Shown here: one piece after another, positions 43,861-51,353 of the stretch
Layout: the number at the start of each line of letters is the position of its first letter
Position numbering within the stretch: position 1 is the stretch's first letter
DNA from: Brevundimonas intermedia
GTDB lineage: Bacteria > Pseudomonadota > Alphaproteobacteria > Caulobacterales > Caulobacteraceae
DNA length: 64,000 nucleotides
Direction: 5' to 3'
Assembly: GCF_004614235.1 (NCBI RefSeq)
Contig: NZ_SPVH01000001.1
Location: forward strand, 186,001-250,000
Made by a program: the position numbers and the translations under genes
Notes under the pieces: model-generated
The model's database searches: none
What the model was told of the DNA's origin: nothing
The model's input: only the letters and a program-made list of their open reading frames with translations

Positions 43861-44691
43861 TTAGCGGAACAGGCCCAGCAGGATCGAGCTGGACGAGTTG
43901 GCGATCGACAGCGCTTGCACGCCAAGTTGTTGCTTGGTTTGCAGGGCGGTCAACTTGGCGCTTTCCTTGGCCAGGTCAGCGTCCACCAGGTTGCCGATGC
44001 CGGATTCCAGGGCGTCCTGGAGCTTGCCGACGAAGGCGCTGGTGCGGCCCACTGACTTGGATTGAGTGCCCAGCGTCGCCAAGTCGGTGGTCATGGCCTT
44101 GATGGCCGCGTCCACCTTGGTGGCGAATGCAGCTGCCGCAGTCGCGTCAGCCGGAGCCGTCTGGGTCGCCGTCACGTCGGTGATCGCCGTAGCGGCCGCC
44201 TTGTCCGTCGTACCGAAGCCGATCTGGTAAGTATTGCCAGTGGCCGCCGTGGACGTGGTGACATTGGTCGCCGTGGTGGTGTTCCACAGGTTCACGCCGT
44301 CGAACGTTGCGCCTTTCAGCGAAGAGTCCACTTCCTTGCCCAGAGCGTTGAAGTCAGCCAGGTAGGCTGCCTGAGCGTCACCGGTGGACGATGCGATGTT
44401 GACCGCAAGGGCCTTCATCTCTTGGAGAGCGCTGGTGGCGGTGTCGCCCGCAGCCAAGGCGACGTCGATGATCGACTGACCGCGTTGCAGCGAGTTCTTG
44501 ACCGCATCCTGAGCACCCATCGTGGCGCGTTGGGTCGTGGCGATGGCGAAGATCGCGCCATTATCCTTGGCCGACGAGACCTTCTGACCGGTGTTGATGC
44601 GGTTTTGGGTCGTTTCCAGCTGGGCGTTGGTCTTGTTCAGGTTCTGCAGCGCGATCGATGCGCCGTAGTTCGTGTTGATGCTGTTAGCCAT
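43861..44691 (-). CDS. flagellin (alpha type), copy 1 (last in array)
   Basis: A 276-aa flagellin with the short core form: D0/D1 ends plus a small centre and no outer domains. Starts ANSINTNYGASIALQNLNKT; ends LSIANSSSSILLGLFR. The centre TAATNVTTSTAATGNTYQIG is rich in Thr/Ser, possible glycosylation sites. The leader is identical to that of the next copy, but no sigma-54 motif lies before it, so it is probably cotranscribed with its neighbour. Confidence 0.95.
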   Translation of the reverse strand: MANSINTNYGASIALQNLNKTNAQLETTQNRINTGQKVSSAKDNGAIFAIATTQRATMGAQDAVKNSLQRGQSIIDVALAAGDTATSALQEMKALAVNIASSTGDAQAAYLADFNALGKEVDSSLKGATFDGVNLWNTTTATNVTTSTAATGNTYQIGFGTTDKAAATAITDVTATQTAPADATAAAAFATKVDAAIKAMTTDLATLGTQSKSVGRTSAFVGKLQDALESGIGNLVDADLAKESAKLTALQTKQQLGVQALSIANSSSSILLGLFR

Positions 44692-44754
44692 TTTGGCTGT
44701 CCTTCTTCACTTCGTGATGGCCGCCGCCATTTTGGCGACGGGAGCGTTTTGCTC
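44692..44754 (-). ncRNA. conserved flagellin mRNA leader, copy 1
   Basis: Minus-strand leader with four hairpin modules: GAGCAAAACGCTC, CGCCAAAATGGCG, TCACGAAGTGA, and AGCCAAAATGGCT, which encloses the ATG. The Shine-Dalgarno is AAGGAC. The sequence is identical to leader copy 2 at 45613. It is a candidate FlbT-type regulatory target, as the Caulobacter fljK leader is. Confidence 0.7.
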
Positions 44755-44805
44755 GATAGTTCAGGCCGTTGGCCGGGACGCCGAAGCCTCCCGGCCCTCC
44801 GGGCC

Positions 44806-45612
44806 TTAGCGGAACAGGCCCAGCAGGATCGAGCTGGACGAGTTGGCGATCGACAGCGCCTGCACGCCAAGCTGTTGCTTGGTTTGCAGGGCGGTCAGGC
44901 GGGCGCTTTCCTTGGCCAGGTCGGCGTCCACCAGGTTGCCGATGCCGGCTTCGGTCGCGTCTTGCAGCTTGCTGACGAAGCTGACCTGACGGCTGACCGA
45001 CTTGGACTGGGTGCCCAAGGTGGCCAGAGCCGTCGTGACGGTCTTCAGCGCTGCATCCACAGCCGTCGTGGTGGCTGCGCCAGCGGCGATGGCGCCCGTG
45101 TTGACGGCGGTCAGGGTCGCATCGCCCGATTGCGAGGCGGCGAAACCGACGCCGTAGGTGCCGCCCGACGTATTGGTCGTCAGGTTGGTCACGCCGGCGG
45201 TGGACCACAGGTTGACGCCGTCGAAGCTGGCGCCCGAGAGCGCCGAGGCGACTTCCTTGCCCATGGCGTTGTAGTCGGCCAGGTAGGCCGTCTGCGCGTC
45301 GCCGGTCGAGGAGGCGATGTTGACCGCGAGGGCCTTCATCTCTTCCAGAGCCGACGTCGCCGTTTCACCCGCAGCCAAGGCGACGTCGATGATCGACTGA
45401 CCGCGTTGCAACGAGCCCTTGACGGCGTCCATGGCGCCCATGTTGGCGCGCTGGGTCGTGGCGATGGCGAAGATCGCGCCATTGTCCTTGGCCGACGAGA
45501 CCTTCTGACCGGTGTTGATGCGGTTTTGGGTCGTTTCCAGCTGGGCGTTGGTCTTGTTCAGGTTCTGCAGCGCGATCGAAGCGCCGTAGTTCGTGTTGAT
45601 GCTGTTAGCCAT
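44806..45612 (-). CDS. flagellin (alpha type), copy 2
   Basis: A 268-aa flagellin of the same short form. The first 50 residues are identical to copy 1 as far as read (SINTNYGASIALQNLNKTNA), and the end is LSIANSSSSILLGLFR. The centre (TTNTSGGTYGVGFAASQSGD) differs from the other copies. It lies between copy 1 and copy 3 with gaps of 114 and 144 bp and has no sigma-54 promoter motif of its own in the gap. Confidence 0.95.
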   Translation of the reverse strand: MANSINTNYGASIALQNLNKTNAQLETTQNRINTGQKVSSAKDNGAIFAIATTQRANMGAMDAVKGSLQRGQSIIDVALAAGETATSALEEMKALAVNIASSTGDAQTAYLADYNAMGKEVASALSGASFDGVNLWSTAGVTNLTTNTSGGTYGVGFAASQSGDATLTAVNTGAIAAGAATTTAVDAALKTVTTALATLGTQSKSVSRQVSFVSKLQDATEAGIGNLVDADLAKESARLTALQTKQQLGVQALSIANSSSSILLGLFR

Positions 45613-45675
45613 TTTGGCTGTCCTTCTTCACTTCGTGATGGCCGCCGCCATTTTGGCGACGGGAGCGTTTTGCTC
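45613..45675 (-). ncRNA. conserved flagellin mRNA leader, copy 2
   Basis: Identical in sequence to leader copy 1 over the hairpins GAGCAAAACGCTC, CGCCAAAATGGCG and TCACGAAGTGA, the Shine-Dalgarno AAGGAC and the start-codon hairpin AGCCAAAATGGCT. The identity extends to the join with the coding region, which indicates a recent duplication. Confidence 0.7.
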
Positions 45676-45756
45676 AGGGTGTGGCGGCCGGACGATGCCG
45701 GCCCCCGATGACGAAGCCTTGGCGCGATCCGCCGAAACGGATCACGCCTCCGGGCC

Positions 45757-46563
45757 TCAGCGGAATAGGCTCATCAGGATCGAGCTGGACGAGTTGGCGA
45801 TCGACAGCGCCTGCACGCCAAGCTGTTGCTTGGTCTGCAGCGCGGTCAGCTTGGCGCTTTCCTTGGCCAGATCCGCGTCCACCAGATTGCCGATGCCGGC
45901 TTCGGTCGCGTCCTGCAGCTTGTTGACGAAGGTCATCTGGCGACCGACCGACTTGGACTGGGTGCCCAGGGTGGCCAGGCTGGTCGTCACGGTCTTGATG
46001 GCGGCGTCCACGTTGGCGACGGTCGCATTGGCGGCCGTGATCGCGCCGGTGTTGACGGCGGTCAGGGTGGCGTCGGCCGAAGGCGCGGCGGCGAAGCCGA
46101 TGGCGTAGGTGCCCCCCGAGGTGTTGGTGGTCAGGTTGGTGACGGCGGCGGTCGTCCACAGGTTCGCGCCGTCGAAGCTGGCGCCGGACAGAGCCGAGGC
46201 GACTTCCTTGCCCAGGGCGTTGTAGTCGGCGAGATAGGCCGTCTGCGCGTCACCGGTCGAGGATGCGATGTTGACCGCCAGGGCCTTCATTTCTTCCAGG
46301 GCCGAAGTCGCGGTGTCGCCGGCGGCCAGGGCCACGTCGACGATCGACTGACCGCGTTGCAGCGAGTTCTTGACCGCATCCATGGCACCCATGTTGGCGC
46401 GCTGGGTCGTGGCGATGGCGAAGATCGCGCCATTGTCCTTGGCGGAGGAAACCTTCTGACCGGTGTTGATGCGGTTCTGGGTGGTTTCCAGCTGGGCGTT
46501 GGTCTTGTTCAGGTTCTGCAGCGCGATCGATGCGCCGTAGTTCGTGTTGATGCTGTTAGCCAT
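45757..46563 (-). CDS. flagellin (alpha type), copy 3
   Basis: A 268-aa flagellin driven by its own sigma-54 promoter at 46639-46653. Close in sequence to copy 2, with a different centre (TTNTSGGTYAIGFAAAPSAD). Ends LSIANSSSSILMSLFR. It is the first gene of a likely three-gene transcript (copies 3, 2, 1). Like the others it lacks the D2/D3 domains found in enterobacterial flagellin. Confidence 0.95.
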   Translation of the reverse strand: MANSINTNYGASIALQNLNKTNAQLETTQNRINTGQKVSSAKDNGAIFAIATTQRANMGAMDAVKNSLQRGQSIVDVALAAGDTATSALEEMKALAVNIASSTGDAQTAYLADYNALGKEVASALSGASFDGANLWTTAAVTNLTTNTSGGTYAIGFAAAPSADATLTAVNTGAITAANATVANVDAAIKTVTTSLATLGTQSKSVGRQMTFVNKLQDATEAGIGNLVDADLAKESAKLTALQTKQQLGVQALSIANSSSSILMSLFR

Positions 46564-46626
46564 TTTGGCTGGTCCTTTTCACTTCGGTGACATCCGGCGT
46601 CTTTTGTCGCCAGGAGCTTTTTGCTC
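46564..46626 (-). ncRNA. conserved flagellin mRNA leader, copy 3
   Basis: Hairpins GAGCAAAAAGCTC (5' end), GGCGACAAAAGACGCC, TCACCGAAGTGA and the start-codon hairpin AGCCAAAATGGCT. Stems are kept while loop and arm bases change, compared with copies 1 and 2. The first hairpin begins about 13 bases after the -12 element, so it probably forms at the 5' end of the transcript. Confidence 0.7.
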
Positions 46627-46638
46627 GGTGGGTAAGAA

Positions 46639-46653
46639 GCAATTGCCGGGCCA
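46639..46653 (-). promoter_or_regulatory. sigma-54 promoter of flagellin copy 3
   Basis: The minus strand reads TGGCCCGGCAATTGC: GG, then ten bases, then GC, the invariant -24/-12 spacing of sigma-54 promoters. The transcript should start about 12 bases further on, just before the first leader hairpin. Confidence 0.85.
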
Positions 46654-46696
46654 CAAACGCAGACCGACAAATCTTCTAAGCTACTGTTTTCGTATA

Positions 46697-46709
46697 TTAA
46701 TCTTTGATT
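46697..46709 (-). promoter_or_regulatory. candidate IHF site
   Basis: AATCAAAGATTAA on the minus strand matches the IHF consensus WATCAANNNNTTR with one mismatch. It lies in an AT-rich patch (46681-46710) in otherwise GC-rich DNA, between the sigma-54 promoter and the ftr sites, as expected for a looping site. Confidence 0.5.
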
Positions 46710-46723
46710 TACCGTCCTTCCTG

Positions 46724-46773
46724 CTCGGCAGAACTTGCCGAGCGAGGATGATCGCTCGGCAAGATTTGCCGAG
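46724..46773. promoter_or_regulatory. pair of ftr (FlbD-binding) sites upstream of flagellin copy 3
   Basis: Two 19-bp palindromes: CTCGGCAGAACTTGCCGAG (46724-46742) and CTCGGCAAGATTTGCCGAG (46755-46773), 31 bp centre to centre (about three helical turns). They lie 71-120 bp upstream of the -24/-12 element. Caulobacter FlbD binds such flagellar transcription regulation (ftr) sites; I infer FlbD here. Confidence 0.8.
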
Positions 46774-46838
46774 AGACGGGCGAAAGCTGGGGCGCGGACC
46801 TGGGTCCGTCCGCGCCGAATGCGTGGGGACGCGCCGCC

Positions 46839-47657
46839 TTAGTTGCGGAACAGGCTCATCAGGATCTGGCTGGACGAGTTGGCGATCGACAGCGCCTGGA
46901 CGCCCAGTTGCTGCTTCGTCTGCAGGGCGGTCAGCCTGGCGCTTTCCTTGGCCAGGTCGGCGTCCACCAGGTTGCCGATGCCGGCTTCGGTGGCGTCCTG
47001 GAGCTTGCCGACGAAGGTAAGCTGGCGGCCGACCGACTTGGACTGGGTGCCCAGGGTGGCCAGGTTGGCGGTGACTTCCTTGATGGCGGCGTCGACGATG
47101 GTCGTCGTGGCCCCGGCGCGGGCAGCCGTGCCGGCCGAGACGGCGACGATGGGAGCCGCTGCGGCCTTGTCGACCGTGCCGAAGCCGATCTGGTAGCTGC
47201 CGCCGCTGACATTGGTGGTCAGCGAGGTGGCGGTGGTGGTGTTCCACAGGTTGACGCCGTCGAACGACGCGCCCTTCAGCGAGGAGTCGATTTCCTTACC
47301 CAAGGCGTTGAAATCGGCCAGATAAGCGATTTCGGCATCGGAGCCGGCGACCGACGACTGGATGTTGACCGCCAGCTGCTTCATTTCTTCGAGCGCTGCG
47401 GTGACGGTGTCGCCGGCGGCGAGCGCCACGTCGACGACAGCCTGTCCGCGCTGCAGCGAATTCTTGACCGCATCCATGGCGCCCATGTTGGCGCGCTGGG
47501 TCGTCGCGATGGCGTAGATCGCGCCGTTATCCTTGGCGGTGGCGACTTTCAGGCCCGTGTTGACACGGTTCTGCGCGCGCTCCAACTGAGCGTTGGTCGC
47601 ATTGAGGTTCTGCAGCGCAATGGCGGCGCCGTAATTCGTATTGATGCTGTTAGCCAT
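46839..47657 (-). CDS. flagellin (alpha type), copy 4 (first in array)
   Basis: A 272-aa flagellin, the most distinct of the four alpha copies (starts ANSINTNYGAAIALQNLNAT; ends SSSQILMSLFRN). It has its own sigma-54 promoter and ftr sites upstream, and a separate promoter region lies between it and copy 3, so it can be expressed apart from the others. Centre SLTTNVSGGSYQIGFGTVDK is short. Confidence 0.95.
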   Translation of the reverse strand: MANSINTNYGAAIALQNLNATNAQLERAQNRVNTGLKVATAKDNGAIYAIATTQRANMGAMDAVKNSLQRGQAVVDVALAAGDTVTAALEEMKQLAVNIQSSVAGSDAEIAYLADFNALGKEIDSSLKGASFDGVNLWNTTTATSLTTNVSGGSYQIGFGTVDKAAAAPIVAVSAGTAARAGATTTIVDAAIKEVTANLATLGTQSKSVGRQLTFVGKLQDATEAGIGNLVDADLAKESARLTALQTKQQLGVQALSIANSSSQILMSLFRN

Positions 47658-47876: not shown

Positions 47877-48188
47877 TCAGTCCGGCGGCCGCTTGAGGCC
47901 ATGTTGCGCATCCTGCATCGCCCGTTCGGCCAGCAGGGTCTCGACCGCCAGACGCCTGGCGCCGTCGCAGGCGACGATCTGGGCGCCACGCTGGGCATAG
48001 GCCGCGTCCAGATCTCCTGCCGTGGGATCAGGCGGCAGGGTCGCCAGGGCGCACGGCCGCTTCGCCGCCTCCGGCAACGTCAGCCGCGCCGGCGCAACCG
48101 TCGAGATCGGGGGCGAGCCGGCACAGCTCGCGGTCATGGCGGCACAGACGATCAGCGCGGCGGTGTTCCAAGGGATGGTCGGCGTCAT
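47877..48188 (-). CDS. o-spanin-like (Rz1) lipoprotein
   Basis: A 103-aa protein starting at ATG 48188 (MTPTIPWNTAALIVC). A hydrophobic stretch and lipobox MTASC (lipidated Cys21) are followed by a short periplasmic part with APARLTLPEAAKRPCALATLPPD. It starts inside the i-spanin gene in another frame and overlaps it by 161 bases, the classic Rz/Rz1 layout. It should tether to the outer membrane and pair with the i-spanin to fuse the membranes at lysis. Confidence 0.7.
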   Translation of the reverse strand: MTPTIPWNTAALIVCAAMTASCAGSPPISTVAPARLTLPEAAKRPCALATLPPDPTAGDLDAAYAQRGAQIVACDGARRLAVETLLAERAMQDAQHGLKRPPD

Positions 48189-48507
48189 CGGCGCTCCTGG
48201 CCTGTGTGACGGCGGTCGCGGTCGCCCGTTCCACCGCCGTCGTCCTGTGTTGATAGTGATCGACGCGAACGGCCTGGGCCGCCGCACCAGCGGTCTCGAT
48301 GCGCCTGGCGTCGGCTTGCGCGGTCGCGACGGCGACGGCGTCTCGCGCTTGGGACCGGGCGGTCTCCAGGCGCTTCTGCTGAAGGTCCAGCGGGTCCCAG
48401 CGAAAGCCCAACCCGCCCAGCAGGGCGAAAGACAGGGCCAGCGTCGCTACGCCCGCCGCCCACCAACCCAGCGGGGTCAGCGCGCGCAGCATCGATCCCG
48501 CGCTCAT
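48028..48507 (-). CDS. i-spanin-like (Rz) protein
   Basis: A 159-aa protein with a single N-terminal anchor (about residues 13-31, GWWAAGVATLALSFALLGG) followed by a coiled coil (LDLQQKRLETARSQARDAVA and on). The last 50 residues are shaped by the overlapping o-spanin frame. ATGA overlap with the endolysin gene. This topology and placement fit the inner-membrane member of a spanin pair; the sequence itself is too variable to name a family. Confidence 0.65.
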   Translation of the reverse strand: MSAGSMLRALTPLGWWAAGVATLALSFALLGGLGFRWDPLDLQQKRLETARSQARDAVAVATAQADARRIETAGAAAQAVRVDHYQHRTTAVERATATAVTQARSADDADHPLEHRRADRLCRHDRELCRLAPDLDGCAGAADVAGGGEAAVRPGDPAA

Positions 48508-48887
48508 GGGAAGGCCTTTCGATCCAGTTCGAAATGCGGGCCGTCGCGCAGCGTCTTCCAGTCCCCGCCCCAGATCAGCGGCGTCTTCAGATCGGCGGCC
48601 GCCGCCTTGAACGCCTGGGCGATCCGGCCATACAGCGGCCAGTCCCAGCGCACCTGACCCTCGACCAGGGCGGCGACATCGACCGCGTGACCCGTCAAAT
48701 GGCGCGAGCGCAGCGTGCGGCTGGCCCCGGCCTTGACCAGCGCCGCCTGACGCGTCGCCGTGCGCAGGCCCTCCGTGATCATGAAGTCGACAGAAGATCG
48801 CAGGATCGCCGCCTCAACCACCGCCGTCAGCGCCGGATGGACGCCGACAAGCCGCGCCCGCGACCGGGTGGAAAGCCGAAAACTCAT
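48504..48887 (-). CDS. M15 family peptidase endolysin
   Basis: A 127-aa protein starting at ATG 48887 (SFRLSTRSRARLVGVHPAL). The metal-binding motif SRHLTGHAVDVAALVEG (H-x6-D) and the last His in DGPHFELDRKAF are those of L-Ala-D-Glu or D-Ala-D-Ala peptidases of phage origin (VanY/Ply500 type). FMITEGLRTATRQAALVKAGAS is the second family block. No signal peptide, so release needs a holin. Coupled to both neighbours by ATGA overlaps. Confidence 0.88.
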   Translation of the reverse strand: MSFRLSTRSRARLVGVHPALTAVVEAAILRSSVDFMITEGLRTATRQAALVKAGASRTLRSRHLTGHAVDVAALVEGQVRWDWPLYGRIAQAFKAAAADLKTPLIWGGDWKTLRDGPHFELDRKAFP

Positions 48888-49147
48888 GGCCGGCCTCCCA
48901 TCATCTTCAGCCGGGCGTTTGCCAGAAGGGCGACCAGTTGCTGGGCTGTGGGCGCCACCAGATAGAGGACCAGGATCAGGGCCAGCAGTCCCATCAGCCC
49001 ATCCGTCATCCTGGGCAACATCTCGGGCGGCATCCGCCCCACAGTCCGCATCAGCAGCACCCACAGCCCCGCGCTGACGGCGAAGGCGTAGAGCCGGCGA
49101 AACAGCCAGCGCCCTTCCGCCAGCGGCTCTATCGTCGGTCGGGTCAT
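48884..49147 (-). CDS. small two-span membrane protein, holin candidate
   Basis: An 87-aa protein with two hydrophobic segments (about residues 18-35 and 48-70) and basic ends (MTRPTIEPLAEGRWLFRRL; ARLKMMGGRP). Size, topology and place just before the endolysin gene fit a phage or gene transfer agent holin. No family motif seen. Coupled by ATGA to the 51-aa protein upstream and to the endolysin downstream. Confidence 0.65.
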   Translation of the reverse strand: MTRPTIEPLAEGRWLFRRLYAFAVSAGLWVLLMRTVGRMPPEMLPRMTDGLMGLLALILVLYLVAPTAQQLVALLANARLKMMGGRP

Positions 49148-49299
49148 TGTTCGTCCTCCTTGTCATAGGTTTCCACGACGCAGCGTCCGTCCCAGCCGGA
49201 CTGGGCGCGCCATTCCCCGTCGCTGAGGCTGTCGGGCGCTTCCCACGCCTCGGGCTCCAGCACTTCGACCGGCTCGGCCGGATGCCGCCGCCGGCTCAT
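49144..49299 (-). CDS. acidic 51-aa protein in the tail-fibre/lysis cassette
   Basis: Starts at ATG 49299, overlapping the tail-fibre stop, and ends overlapping the holin candidate start (ATGA on both sides). The sequence is acidic and has three Trp (EPEAWEAPDSLSDGEWRAQSG, GWDGRCVVETYDKEDEQ) with no membrane span. No family recognised. Its tight coupling on both sides supports it as a real gene. Confidence 0.6.
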   Translation of the reverse strand: MSRRRHPAEPVEVLEPEAWEAPDSLSDGEWRAQSGWDGRCVVETYDKEDEQ

Positions 49300-50750
49300 C
49301 CGACGGCCGTGATGCGAACGGCGCCCGCCGCGCCGGGACCGCCAAGGCCTGCGGCGGTCAGACCCGCGCCGCCGCCCCCTCCGCCTGCGCCGAAGGTCGC
49401 GCCTGCGCCGCCGGGACTTCCGGCGCCGCTCGCCGATGCGGTCCCGCCGCCGCCGCCTCCACCGGACAACGACAGATGGGGCATGACGACGATCGAACCC
49501 GCCGCACCCGCCGCCCCACCTGCGGCCAGACATCCGCACCAGCCGCCGCACCCGCCAGGTCCTCCAGCACGCGCACCATCGGACGCGCTCAGCCCGCCGC
49601 CAGCGCCGCCGCCGCGGGGTCCATCGGGACAGACCGTCTCGCCGCCGGTCGCTGCTGTGGTCGTGATCGATGAGCCGCCGCCGGGGTTGGCGACGCGCAA
49701 ACCCAGGCCGCCGGCGCCGCCCAGGCCCGCGCTGGCGCTACCTGTCGCACCGCCGAGGCCGCCCGAGGCGCGCAGCAAAACGTCGCCGCCCGCCGCGATG
49801 CGGCTCTCGCCTCCCGCAGCACCCCCAACGCCGCCCGCGCCGACGGTGATGGTCAATGCATCTTCGAGATCGTCAGTGGACCAGCAGCCTTGCGTCAGGC
49901 CGCCCGCGCCGCCGCCCCCGCCCCCGAAACGCGCGGTTCCAGCCGGCCCAGCCAGCCCAGCGCCGCCCCCTCCTCCGCCGCCGACGCAAGCCACTTCGAG
50001 CCAGCGCGCCCAGGACGGCGCGACATAGTCGCCGTCTGCGGTGAACAGGGTCGTCTCACGCCTGACGGCTCCCAGGTCGAAGGCGACGCGGCCGGTGGCG
50101 CGGTCCACGCGAAACACGCTCCGCCATGTCCCCGAGTCGTCGCAGGCCTTGAGCCCCAGATCGTCCTCGCCGATCAGGCCAAGTTCGGCGCGGGCGGCAT
50201 ATCCGCTCTGGAACAGCAGCGACAGTACATCGGCCGCCGCTTCCTTGTTCAGCGTCAGACGCAGGTCGCCGTCGCCGCCCTCCTCCACGCCGCGCGCGGT
50301 GAACAGGGCGGCGTTGATCTTGGCGGACAGGGGATTGGCGTCATCGGCGGTCGTGCCCGGGCCCAGCCGCGCCAAACCTTGAGCCTCGCCCAACCGTTCG
50401 CCGAGCGCGACCCAGCCCGCGTCGGTCCGCACCAGAACGGCTGGCTCGTCCAGCACCACGGCGATCAGGCCATTGGGCGTCGGCACGACGGTCCAGCCGC
50501 CCGCCTCGAACCGCATCAAGCTTCCGCTTGCTCGCCCGCCCCAGGCGGCCCCCTCCACATCGTCCGGCAGGATATAAAGGTCGCCGTCGGCCGGAGCGGG
50601 CGCCTGAACCGCCGTGGTCCGGCTGACCACCGCCGTTTGCAGCAGGGCGTCCAGCCGGGTCAGGGCCGTGTTCAGGGTCACGTGCTTCTGCATCTGTCCC
50701 GCCGCCAGATAAGGCAGGGCCAGACGCGCACTGAAGTCGTCGCTCATCAT
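49296..50750 (-). CDS. DUF2793 tail fibre protein with glycine-rich tip
   Basis: A 484-aa protein. The first 110 residues are DUF2793 (ARLALPYLAAGQMQKHVTLN, ALTRLDALLQTAVVS, PADGDLYILP), the domain of the Rhodobacter capsulatus gene transfer agent tail fibre. A middle part follows (about 110-225, DLRLTLNKEAAADVLSLLFQ). The last 230 residues are very Gly-rich (GGGGGGGAGLAG and GGGGGGAGG, TITVGAGGVGG), like the glycine-rich receptor-binding tips of T-even gp38 adhesins. The two ATG codons at 50750 and 50747 are both usable after GGAGAGA. It should bind a host surface receptor. Confidence 0.88.
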   Translation of the reverse strand: MMSDDFSARLALPYLAAGQMQKHVTLNTALTRLDALLQTAVVSRTTAVQAPAPADGDLYILPDDVEGAAWGGRASGSLMRFEAGGWTVVPTPNGLIAVVLDEPAVLVRTDAGWVALGERLGEAQGLARLGPGTTADDANPLSAKINAALFTARGVEEGGDGDLRLTLNKEAAADVLSLLFQSGYAARAELGLIGEDDLGLKACDDSGTWRSVFRVDRATGRVAFDLGAVRRETTLFTADGDYVAPSWARWLEVACVGGGGGGGAGLAGPAGTARFGGGGGGAGGLTQGCWSTDDLEDALTITVGAGGVGGAAGGESRIAAGGDVLLRASGGLGGATGSASAGLGGAGGLGLRVANPGGGSSITTTAATGGETVCPDGPRGGGAGGGLSASDGARAGGPGGCGGWCGCLAAGGAAGAAGSIVVMPHLSLSGGGGGGGTASASGAGSPGGAGATFGAGGGGGGAGLTAAGLGGPGAAGAVRITAVG

Positions 50751-50891
50751 TCTCTCCGTTGTCGTCGGAGATCAGTCTGGGCGCGGCCCTACCTCAGGCC
50801 GGAAGATGGTCGATACGATGGACTAGGCCGTTGTTTTCAGACGGCTTCGGTTTGCAAAATATGCAGGCTAGACCGGTTCAACCCGCGCATC

Positions 50892-51353
50892 TCAGTCGTG
50901 AAGATAGACGATCCGCTTCAGCGTCTGGTCGTTTTGCACCCGCGCCTCATGCATCTCGTGGTCGCCGCTGGCGCGCGCATTGGCCTCGGTGTCCTCGACC
51001 CAGTGGGTGCTTTCGATGTGTTTCTGCAGCGCCCGCGCCGCCATCAGCTGGCCGGGGAAAAAGGTGTCCACGATGTCGCCCGCGAGGGGCACAGTGCCGG
51101 TCGCCGTGTCGATGGCCATATAGGCCCCCATCCGCGCAAGTGTCGCCGGCGTCGCCTTGGCCCGCACGGCCTGAAGCATCAGCCAGCCCCCGGTTCCGAC
51201 TGTATAGACCGTGCCGACGACCGGCACCCAGGTCAGCATGGCGTCCAGCCCCAGGCCGAACGGCCCGATGCCGATCACGCGGTCGGACAGCTTCTTTACG
51301 CCCTCGACATTGGACCAGATGTTCTCGATATCCCGGATCGACCGTCTGGCCAT
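50892..51353 (-). CDS. DUF4112 family protein
   Basis: A 153-aa protein. ATG 51353 is preceded by GGAGGG five bases upstream, better than the TTG at 51365. LSDRVIGIGPFGLGLDAMLTWVPVVGTVYTV and ATGTVPLAGDIVDTFFPG are the DUF4112 core, with one or two membrane-dipping helices. The C-terminus is acidic and His-rich (SGDHEMHEARVQNDQ). Family function is unknown. Divergent to the EEP gene. Confidence 0.87.
   Translation of the reverse strand: MARRSIRDIENIWSNVEGVKKLSDRVIGIGPFGLGLDAMLTWVPVVGTVYTVGTGGWLMLQAVRAKATPATLARMGAYMAIDTATGTVPLAGDIVDTFFPGQLMAARALQKHIESTHWVEDTEANARASGDHEMHEARVQNDQTLKRIVYLHD

Follow-up and report, generated by a model that had tools for sequence, protein, structure and literature searches.

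The locus described here raises the question of which system is served by a phage-type tail fibre gene and a set of lysis genes that stand together with no capsid or terminase gene beside them. It lies in a 64,000-nucleotide stretch of contig C1 (G000:C1:186001-250000) of the 3.34-Mb genome of Brevundimonas intermedia; this whole stretch is the window, and positions are counted within it unless a contig or locus is named. Six minus-strand open reading frames (ORFs) occupy 47877-50750, each running from ATG to TGA in an ORF check of the window. With a probability of roughly 0.84, we read the locus as an accessory fibre-and-release operon of a Brevundimonas gene transfer agent (GTA) similar to RcGTA, the type I alphaproteobacterial GTA of Rhodobacter capsulatus, whose release genes would lyse the producing cell.

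The operon and the GTA cluster of the same genome

The six genes are as follows, in the order of transcription.

49296..50750, minus strand: GTA tail fibre, 484 aa; DUF2793 (PF10983, 4e-18, residues 27-114) and a glycine-rich C-terminal part (Gly_rich_2, PF21722, 1.3e-9)
49144..49299, minus strand: acidic 51-aa protein, net charge -8; overlaps of 4 nt on both sides, no family
48884..49147, minus strand: holin candidate, 87 aa; two hydrophobic segments (windows from residues 19 and 50)
48504..48887, minus strand: M15 endolysin, 127 aa, L-Ala-D-Glu endopeptidase type; Peptidase_M15_4 (PF13539, 3.3e-12) and phrog_465 (7e-57)
48028..48507, minus strand: Rz-like i-spanin; phrog_214 (7e-5), one N-terminal hydrophobic segment (window at residue 17)
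47877..48188, minus strand: Rz1-like o-spanin lipoprotein; phrog_456 (2.5e-4), overlapping the i-spanin gene by 161 nt in another frame

From first to last, the overlaps between neighbours are 4, 4, 4, 4, and 161 nt, leaving no intergenic gap. A sequence-only reading of the window had listed these genes, and the ORFs, strand, order, and placement were all as it had described, with families that matched. DUF2793 is described as the tail fibre family of RcGTA (PMC10883770). The catalytic residues of the endolysin (S61xH63xxGHAxD70 and D115GPH118FE120) were near-invariant in 36 relatives, as were Cys22 (at the lipobox place), Cys46, and Cys74 of the o-spanin in 32 relatives. According to hydropathy and alignment, the 87-aa protein has a conserved core and two hydrophobic segments in 35 relatives, and the 51-aa protein was present in only part of the Brevundimonas loci. 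Neither of these two small proteins had a convincing family match in Pfam or PHROGs, and no phage relatives of the 87-aa protein were found; we thus assigned it the label "holin" solely by position and topology.

Contig C2 of the same genome carries an RcGTA-like cluster consisting of a terminase (147569-148888), portal, HK97 capsid, connector, tail genes, DUF2460, and a 1232-aa GTA_TIM hub, with the gene order of two Caulobacter-type genomes. Farther along C2 lie a GafY-like protein with a DnaA-type helix-turn-helix (HTH) domain (Bac_DnaA_C, 1.7e-5, below the Pfam cut-off) and GafZ with DUF6456. The sequence-only reading had called for such a structural cluster elsewhere in the genome and had seen no capsid or terminase near the fibre; both points agree with our searches, in which own-genome matches to the GTA capsid and terminase were confined to C2. 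The statement covers these two genes, as no phage-gene scan of the remaining window was made and integrase and portal were not searched genome-wide. DUF2793 and phrog_465 each matched once in the whole genome, so that a second copy of the fibre or endolysin gene, as in the intact prophage named earlier as evidence against a GTA role, was not found.

Together with the co-occurrence, synteny, and promoter element described below, the C2 cluster supports the proposal that the cassette serves a Caulobacterales GTA. The label "satellite" given to it earlier fits poorly, and the block reads instead as an accessory locus of the GTA. In our model, a GTA-type promoter, probably activated by the genome's own GafY and GafZ with integration host factor (IHF), would give rise to one polycistronic message. 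From this message, the tail fibre needed to complete the particle would be made first, followed by the holin, the M15 endopeptidase, and the two-component spanin, which would breach inner membrane, peptidoglycan, and outer membrane, respectively. With expression of the structural cluster on the other contig, producing cells would lyse and release particles, and the single transcript would couple particle completion to cell opening when GafYZ activates the structural cluster.

The earlier reading had also held that the joining of fibre and lysis genes in one operon would be a distinct arrangement. The joining is real, but it is not special to this strain, because it is the norm in Brevundimonas, and some other members of the family show it with different lysis genes. 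In RcGTA, the fibre and lysis genes stand at separate loci and are not known to include spanins. The Brevundimonas system differs in that these genes form one operon with a two-component spanin, and it is alike in its GTA_TIM-type hub, its DUF2793 fibre family, its GafA-type activator (split in Brevundimonas into GafY and GafZ), and its combination of holin and endolysin (for RcGTA lysis, see PMC13236601). The tail fibre and lysis genes of RcGTA are listed as separate groups in PMC6363796. No report of a Brevundimonas GTA lysis locus appeared among the literature titles listed.

Co-occurrence, synteny, and selection

We surveyed 149 Caulobacteraceae genomes, in which we infer group g1 (24 genomes) to be Brevundimonas and group g22 to be Caulobacter-type. 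The DUF2793 fibre was found in 75 of the 149 genomes, one of them with a broken fragment below the cut-off, and the GTA_TIM hub in 68. All 68 hub-positive genomes were fibre-positive (68/68), 7 genomes had the fibre only, and 74 had neither (Fisher P of 8e-35, a value that ignores phylogeny). The genomes with only the fibre were G107, G143, G137, G099, and the g2 genomes G036, G048, and G065 (97, 83, and 63% complete). Of these, G107 had no hub match yet had a GTA capsid at 81% identity. In G099, a genome without a hub match, the DUF2793 fragment carries a stop and lies beside DUF4112 (locus L088); it is apparently a fibre decaying after loss of the GTA.

The lysis module had a narrower distribution. 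The phrog_465 endolysin was matched in 23 of the 24 g1 genomes and in 10 hub-negative genomes; outside g1, the 46 hub-positive genomes had no match. DUF6456, representing GafZ, was found in all 24 g1 genomes and in just 57 of the 149 overall, so that some hub-positive genomes of other genera have no GafZ match. Within g1, the capsid was matched in 22 of 24 genomes (absent in G135 and G143), and the B. intermedia terminase, used as a query, in 23 of 24 (none in G107).

The fibre and endolysin genes were adjacent in 19 of the 24 Brevundimonas genomes, B. intermedia included; in three others (G102, G147, and G097), adjacency could not be assessed because contig ends cut the locus. A separate scan of named genomes with the endolysin yielded 69 loci, 38 of which were Caulobacterales by title or by cassette content (one, L287, comes from a record titled Bordetella with Brevundimonas-like gene content). 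Every Caulobacterales locus with enough upstream DNA to be testable carried the fibre and the holin candidate (28/28). Eight of the other 10 were too short to judge, and L288 and L289 were stand-alone second endolysin copies. In the remaining 31 named loci, neither fibre nor holin candidate was found on the match strand, the sole strand tabulated. The cassette is therefore conserved in place and order across Brevundimonas, a point that the sequence-only reading had put forward for checking.

Selection was estimated from B. intermedia and 23 of the 28 named loci, with L266, L283, L286, L287, and L302 excluded beforehand. Median pairwise dN/dS was 0.22 for the endolysin (269 pairs), indicating purifying selection, 0.37 for the N-terminal part of the fibre, 0.46 for the holin candidate, and 0.57 for the o-spanin, whose gene partly overlaps another. 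Recurrence in all testable loci together with purifying selection on the endolysin makes the arrangement more than chance. The identity matrices of fibre, endolysin, and holin correlated with one another (r, 0.79 to 0.83), and endolysin identity to the B. intermedia copy tracked capsid identity (r, 0.83; n = 15 of the 21 other capsid-positive genomes). It is important to note that these correlations are not independent tests, because the genomes are related.

A promoter element shared with the GTA main cluster

The region upstream of 50750, where the sequence-only reading had suggested looking for activator sites, contains the same element as the main promoter of the GTA cluster. Its features, and the neighbouring gene, are as follows.

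50792..50806, minus strand: promoter element TCTTCCGGCCTGAGG, 15 bp, identical to the element of the GTA main-cluster promoter
50773..50779, minus strand: -10-like block CAGACTG, 12 nt after the shared element; conserved in 21 aligned Brevundimonas upstream regions
50824..50836, minus strand: IHF-like site with 2 mismatches, weak here; G078 has a perfect site at almost the same position
50753..50771, minus strand: possible 5' hairpin TCTCCG...CGGAGA with ribosome-binding sequence; pairs retained in most of 17 sequences
50892..51353, minus strand: DUF4112 gene (PF13430, 9.8e-19), a conserved upstream neighbour that we read as outside the operon

Three exact copies of TCTTCCGGCCTGAGG were present in the 3.34-Mb genome, against approximately 0.02 expected as estimated from background. 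These copies precede the fibre gene, the GTA small terminase gene, and an HTH gene. No place in the genome had one mismatch and 20 had two; with up to three mismatches, there were 224 places on both strands, compared with 173 for a reversed control. The third copy stands before the gene of a 98-aa HTH protein (L206:1540-1836 = G000:C6:792275-792568), where a similar -10 block, CACACTG, lies 12 nt downstream at the place equal to that of CAGACTG in the fibre promoter. The 98-aa protein was matched in 28 of the 149 genomes, closely (83 and 52%) only in G078 and G122. It is possibly the counterpart of the GafYZ-induced ccna_01082, which we treat as a lead because the HTH domain is common.

Across the 14 genomes in which both promoters were available, local similarity between the gtaT and fibre promoters averaged 17.1 within genomes and 10.4 between genomes; 500 shuffles reached at most 10.6, and 0 of 20,000 permutations were as high as the observed value. 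This comparison left out genomes without a hub-side terminase, G117 (whose fibre start was not found), and G092. The difference persisted without G135 and G139 (13.1 versus 10.5; 78 of 20,000 permutations) and without G135, G139, G000, and G078 (12.2 versus 10.3; 414 of 20,000). In G139, a single contig, only the gtaT and fibre promoters among 14 pattern hits carry the long element; in G135, 5 of the 16 pattern hits fetched (17 in total) carry it. The similarity spans up to approximately 85 nt in these two genomes, which suggests that the promoters may have been copied or corrected against each other.

Binding of the shared promoters by the activators would be in keeping with published work on related systems, in which GafA of RcGTA binds the structural and lysis-cassette promoters (PMC6363796) and GafY of Caulobacter crescentus occupies 20 regions, sharing 18 with IHF (PMC11150451). 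IHF-like sites with at most one mismatch were present in 5 of 21 fibre promoters compared with 1.22 expected, providing modest support. The 5' hairpin at 50753-50771 was dropped as a proven structure, as its pairing showed zero compensatory changes.

Three of the five long-element copies in G135 (L338, L344, and L346, on contigs C18, C37, and C42) each point into a contig end before an unassembled repeat, and a plasmid search with one G135 promoter copy found nothing. We considered on account of these copies whether the shared element is a promoter of the rRNA type. No rRNA was found in 10 contig-end stretches of the B. intermedia genome, in 20 of its 23 loci with up to two mismatches to the element, or in the window, which makes this explanation less likely, with the caveat that the genome's own rRNA promoters were not located.

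Points against a GTA role and other explanations

Several observations weigh against assigning the operon to the GTA. In G143 (L055), the cassette, the fibre upstream region, and gafZ are kept with no hub or capsid match. Retention of the locus without a GTA cluster had been named in the sequence-only reading as grounds for abandoning its proposal, and we found it in 1 of the 24 Brevundimonas genomes. Six hub-positive genomes (G024, G037, G073, G083, G131, and G147) had no terminase match beside the hub, and the terminase matches that they do have resemble phage copies; part of the genus may thus have incomplete GTA clusters with the endolysin retained. In G073, the capsid and hub are split between frames. 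The fibre is divergent in G083 and G092, and next to it no lysis gene was found (the G083 endolysin sits elsewhere in the genome, and G092 has none). Of the 19 genomes with adjacent fibre and endolysin, 4 yielded no spanins (G073, G131, G058, and G117). At the promoter, the match between gtaT and fibre was at background (8 to 10) in 6 of the 14 genomes (G087, G122, G112, G049, G066, and G058), the three G135 copies at contig ends face unread genes, and the published GafY-site letters ACTATG were not seen in the fibre upstream region by inspection alone. We also observed that other terminase matches exist in the G143 genome.

The first alternative is that the fibre alone serves the GTA and the lysis genes are passengers, with release by another system as in Caulobacter. 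The GTA of C. crescentus (CcGTA) lends it some weight. CcGTA is like the Brevundimonas system in its GafYZ activators, in a fibre gene distant from the main cluster (PMC9632790), and in a structural cluster ordered as in the g22 genomes, if these are Caulobacter. Its fibre homologue, ccna_02456, is GafYZ-induced, and its authors found no holin-endolysin (PMC9632790). CcGTA differs from the Brevundimonas system in that no holin-endolysin is reported for it and LypABC is required for lysis, with the lytic effector unknown (PMC13236601, 2026). The absence of spanins from some Brevundimonas genomes also fits the passenger explanation. Against it, the catalytic residues of the endolysin and the core of the holin candidate are conserved, the endolysin evolves at a dN/dS of 0.22, and the genes overlap within one operon.

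LypB was also not found in Brevundimonas. We identified a lypABC-like operon in L142 by domain order and used its LypB, which has Walker residues lysine 230 and aspartate 335 at the published positions, as the query, scoring at most five candidates per genome. Full-length matches were found in 6 of the 149 genomes (G077, G130, G086, and G142 at >=63% identity; G104 and G047 at 37 to 38%), and three more had short, weak matches. None of the 24 Brevundimonas genomes had a match. Based on the hub and LypB searches together, LypB occurred in 4 of the 20 hub-positive g22 genomes, and given this rarity, release through LypABC may not be general, even among Caulobacter-type genomes. We give little credence to the lysis genes being passengers. 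As a separate observation, a gene that directly precedes the lypABC-like operon and shares its strand (L142:79-1305; L141:8614-9981) has no Pfam match and contains SDHNPW and DHHVHIS stretches that look peptidase-like by eye; its product is a possible candidate for the lytic effector of LypABC.

A second alternative, which we judge quite unlikely, is that the block is a type 10 secretion system, a domesticated holin, endopeptidase, and spanin set that releases host proteins and has the GTA fibre upstream by accident. Such systems are described as domesticated and as acting through lysis of a subpopulation (PMC10847048). Two points favour this explanation: the closest solved relative of the endolysin is ChiX (structure 5opz, 5.9e-38), and the order of holin, ChiX-like endopeptidase, i-spanin, and o-spanin is that of Serratia ChiWXYZ (PMC10847048) and is shared with YenLC. 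The expected genes (holin, L-Ala-D-Glu endopeptidase, and spanins) are all present, the holin by topology alone. However, a type 10 lysis set would be expected to stand apart from phage structural genes, and the Brevundimonas set is linked by 4-nt overlaps to a phage-type GTA fibre gene, in one operon behind a promoter that matches the GTA promoter. In addition, the phrog_465 endolysin gave no match in the 46 hub-positive genomes outside Brevundimonas, some of which have other lysis genes near the fibre. The comparison with type 10 systems covered exported-protein neighbours only among the genes named here.

That the block is the tail end of a decayed ordinary prophage retained by chance is very improbable. 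In its favour, phages often carry M15 endolysins of this type (1244 phage records), and in Rhodobacter phage RcZahn and ctuI7215 the DUF2793 gene comes immediately after the GTA_TIM hub. Against it, place and order are constant across the genus, purifying selection and hub co-occurrence are evident, and no further DUF2793 or phrog_465 match lies in the genome. Siphophages with a GTA-type hub (ctuI7215, RcZahn, and vB_PmaS-R3) have the DUF2793 gene directly downstream of the hub, followed in ctuI7215 by a muramidase; RcCronus is similar, with DUF2793 after a 3.9-kb gene annotated as a hydrolase. In the Brevundimonas locus, by contrast, the fibre and lysis genes stand apart from the hub, and the enzyme encoded is an M15 peptidase.

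The proposed accessory GTA operon bears on how GTA-producing cells lyse, a live question given that the effectors in C. crescentus are unknown. In Brevundimonas, the fibre and a classical lysis kit are joined under a GTA-type promoter and conserved across the genus, in contrast to the published Caulobacter route. The genus appears to keep this kit tied to that promoter in a set of 149 genomes in which LypB is rare, which suggests that release is among the quickly changing parts of a GTA and makes the lysis question directly testable in Brevundimonas.

Other genera were scanned around the fibre with few queries over approximately 9 kb or less per locus, and absences there are correspondingly soft. 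In G011, a phage lysozyme, a protein in an i-spanin-like place, and an Rz1-like protein lie approximately 2 kb downstream of the fibre, with other ORFs between the fibre and the lysozyme block; in G028, a lysozyme and a 71-aa-like protein lie approximately 2 kb from the fibre. An M15_3 endolysin accompanies a phrog_6637 protein (a family without assigned function) near the fibre in G016 and G124, and M15_3 lies approximately 2 kb downstream of it in G137, which has no hub match. G080 has a weak M15_3 match and an Rz1-like match near the fibre, and G060, G068, G075, G094, and G023 have the phrog_6637 protein alone. Only the 71-aa protein was found in G012, and a contig end truncates the locus in G001. 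With these queries, no lysis genes were found beside the fibre in 14 g22 loci (13 plus G111, approximately 9 kb each), in the remaining g14 loci, or in the g20 loci.

These patterns leave us evenly divided on whether the Caulobacteraceae share, family-wide, a fibre-adjacent slot for interchangeable lysis modules under a GTA-type promoter. Such a slot would hold M15_4, holin, and spanins in Brevundimonas; a phage lysozyme accompanied by either an Rz1-like spanin or a small protein in individual g11 and g12 genomes; M15_3 with phrog_6637 in g16 and part of g14; phrog_6637 alone elsewhere; and nothing recognised in g22, where in a few species the immune-like LypABC would have taken over release. 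The ORFs that intervene between fibre and lysis genes in g11 and g12 count against this idea.

The block is flanked by a flagellin gene at 46839-47657 (named from its sequence without a family scan) and, on the other side, by the DUF4112 gene. The flagellin gene belongs to four tandem flagellin-like paralogues on the minus strand (43861-47657, likewise named by sequence) that adjoin the cassette, and a flagellin relative lies 3' of the cassette in most Brevundimonas loci. The DUF4112 gene is near the fibre gene in many relatives. In all 16 of the g14 loci read, DUF4112 is upstream of the GTA fibre with no Brevundimonas-type endolysin, and the DUF4112-fibre linkage may therefore be older than the lysis module.

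Within the GTA structural cluster, approximately 20 kb separate portal and capsid in G139 (L186, C1:1236970-1271658), far above the other genomes read. In B. intermedia, a GDSL hydrolase and an acyltransferase (Acyl_transf_3) lie between the GTA terminase and portal (L045:6271-8507 = G000:C2:144270-146506), and G131 (L183) has relatives of both genes upstream of its portal. This pair might modify surface polysaccharides.

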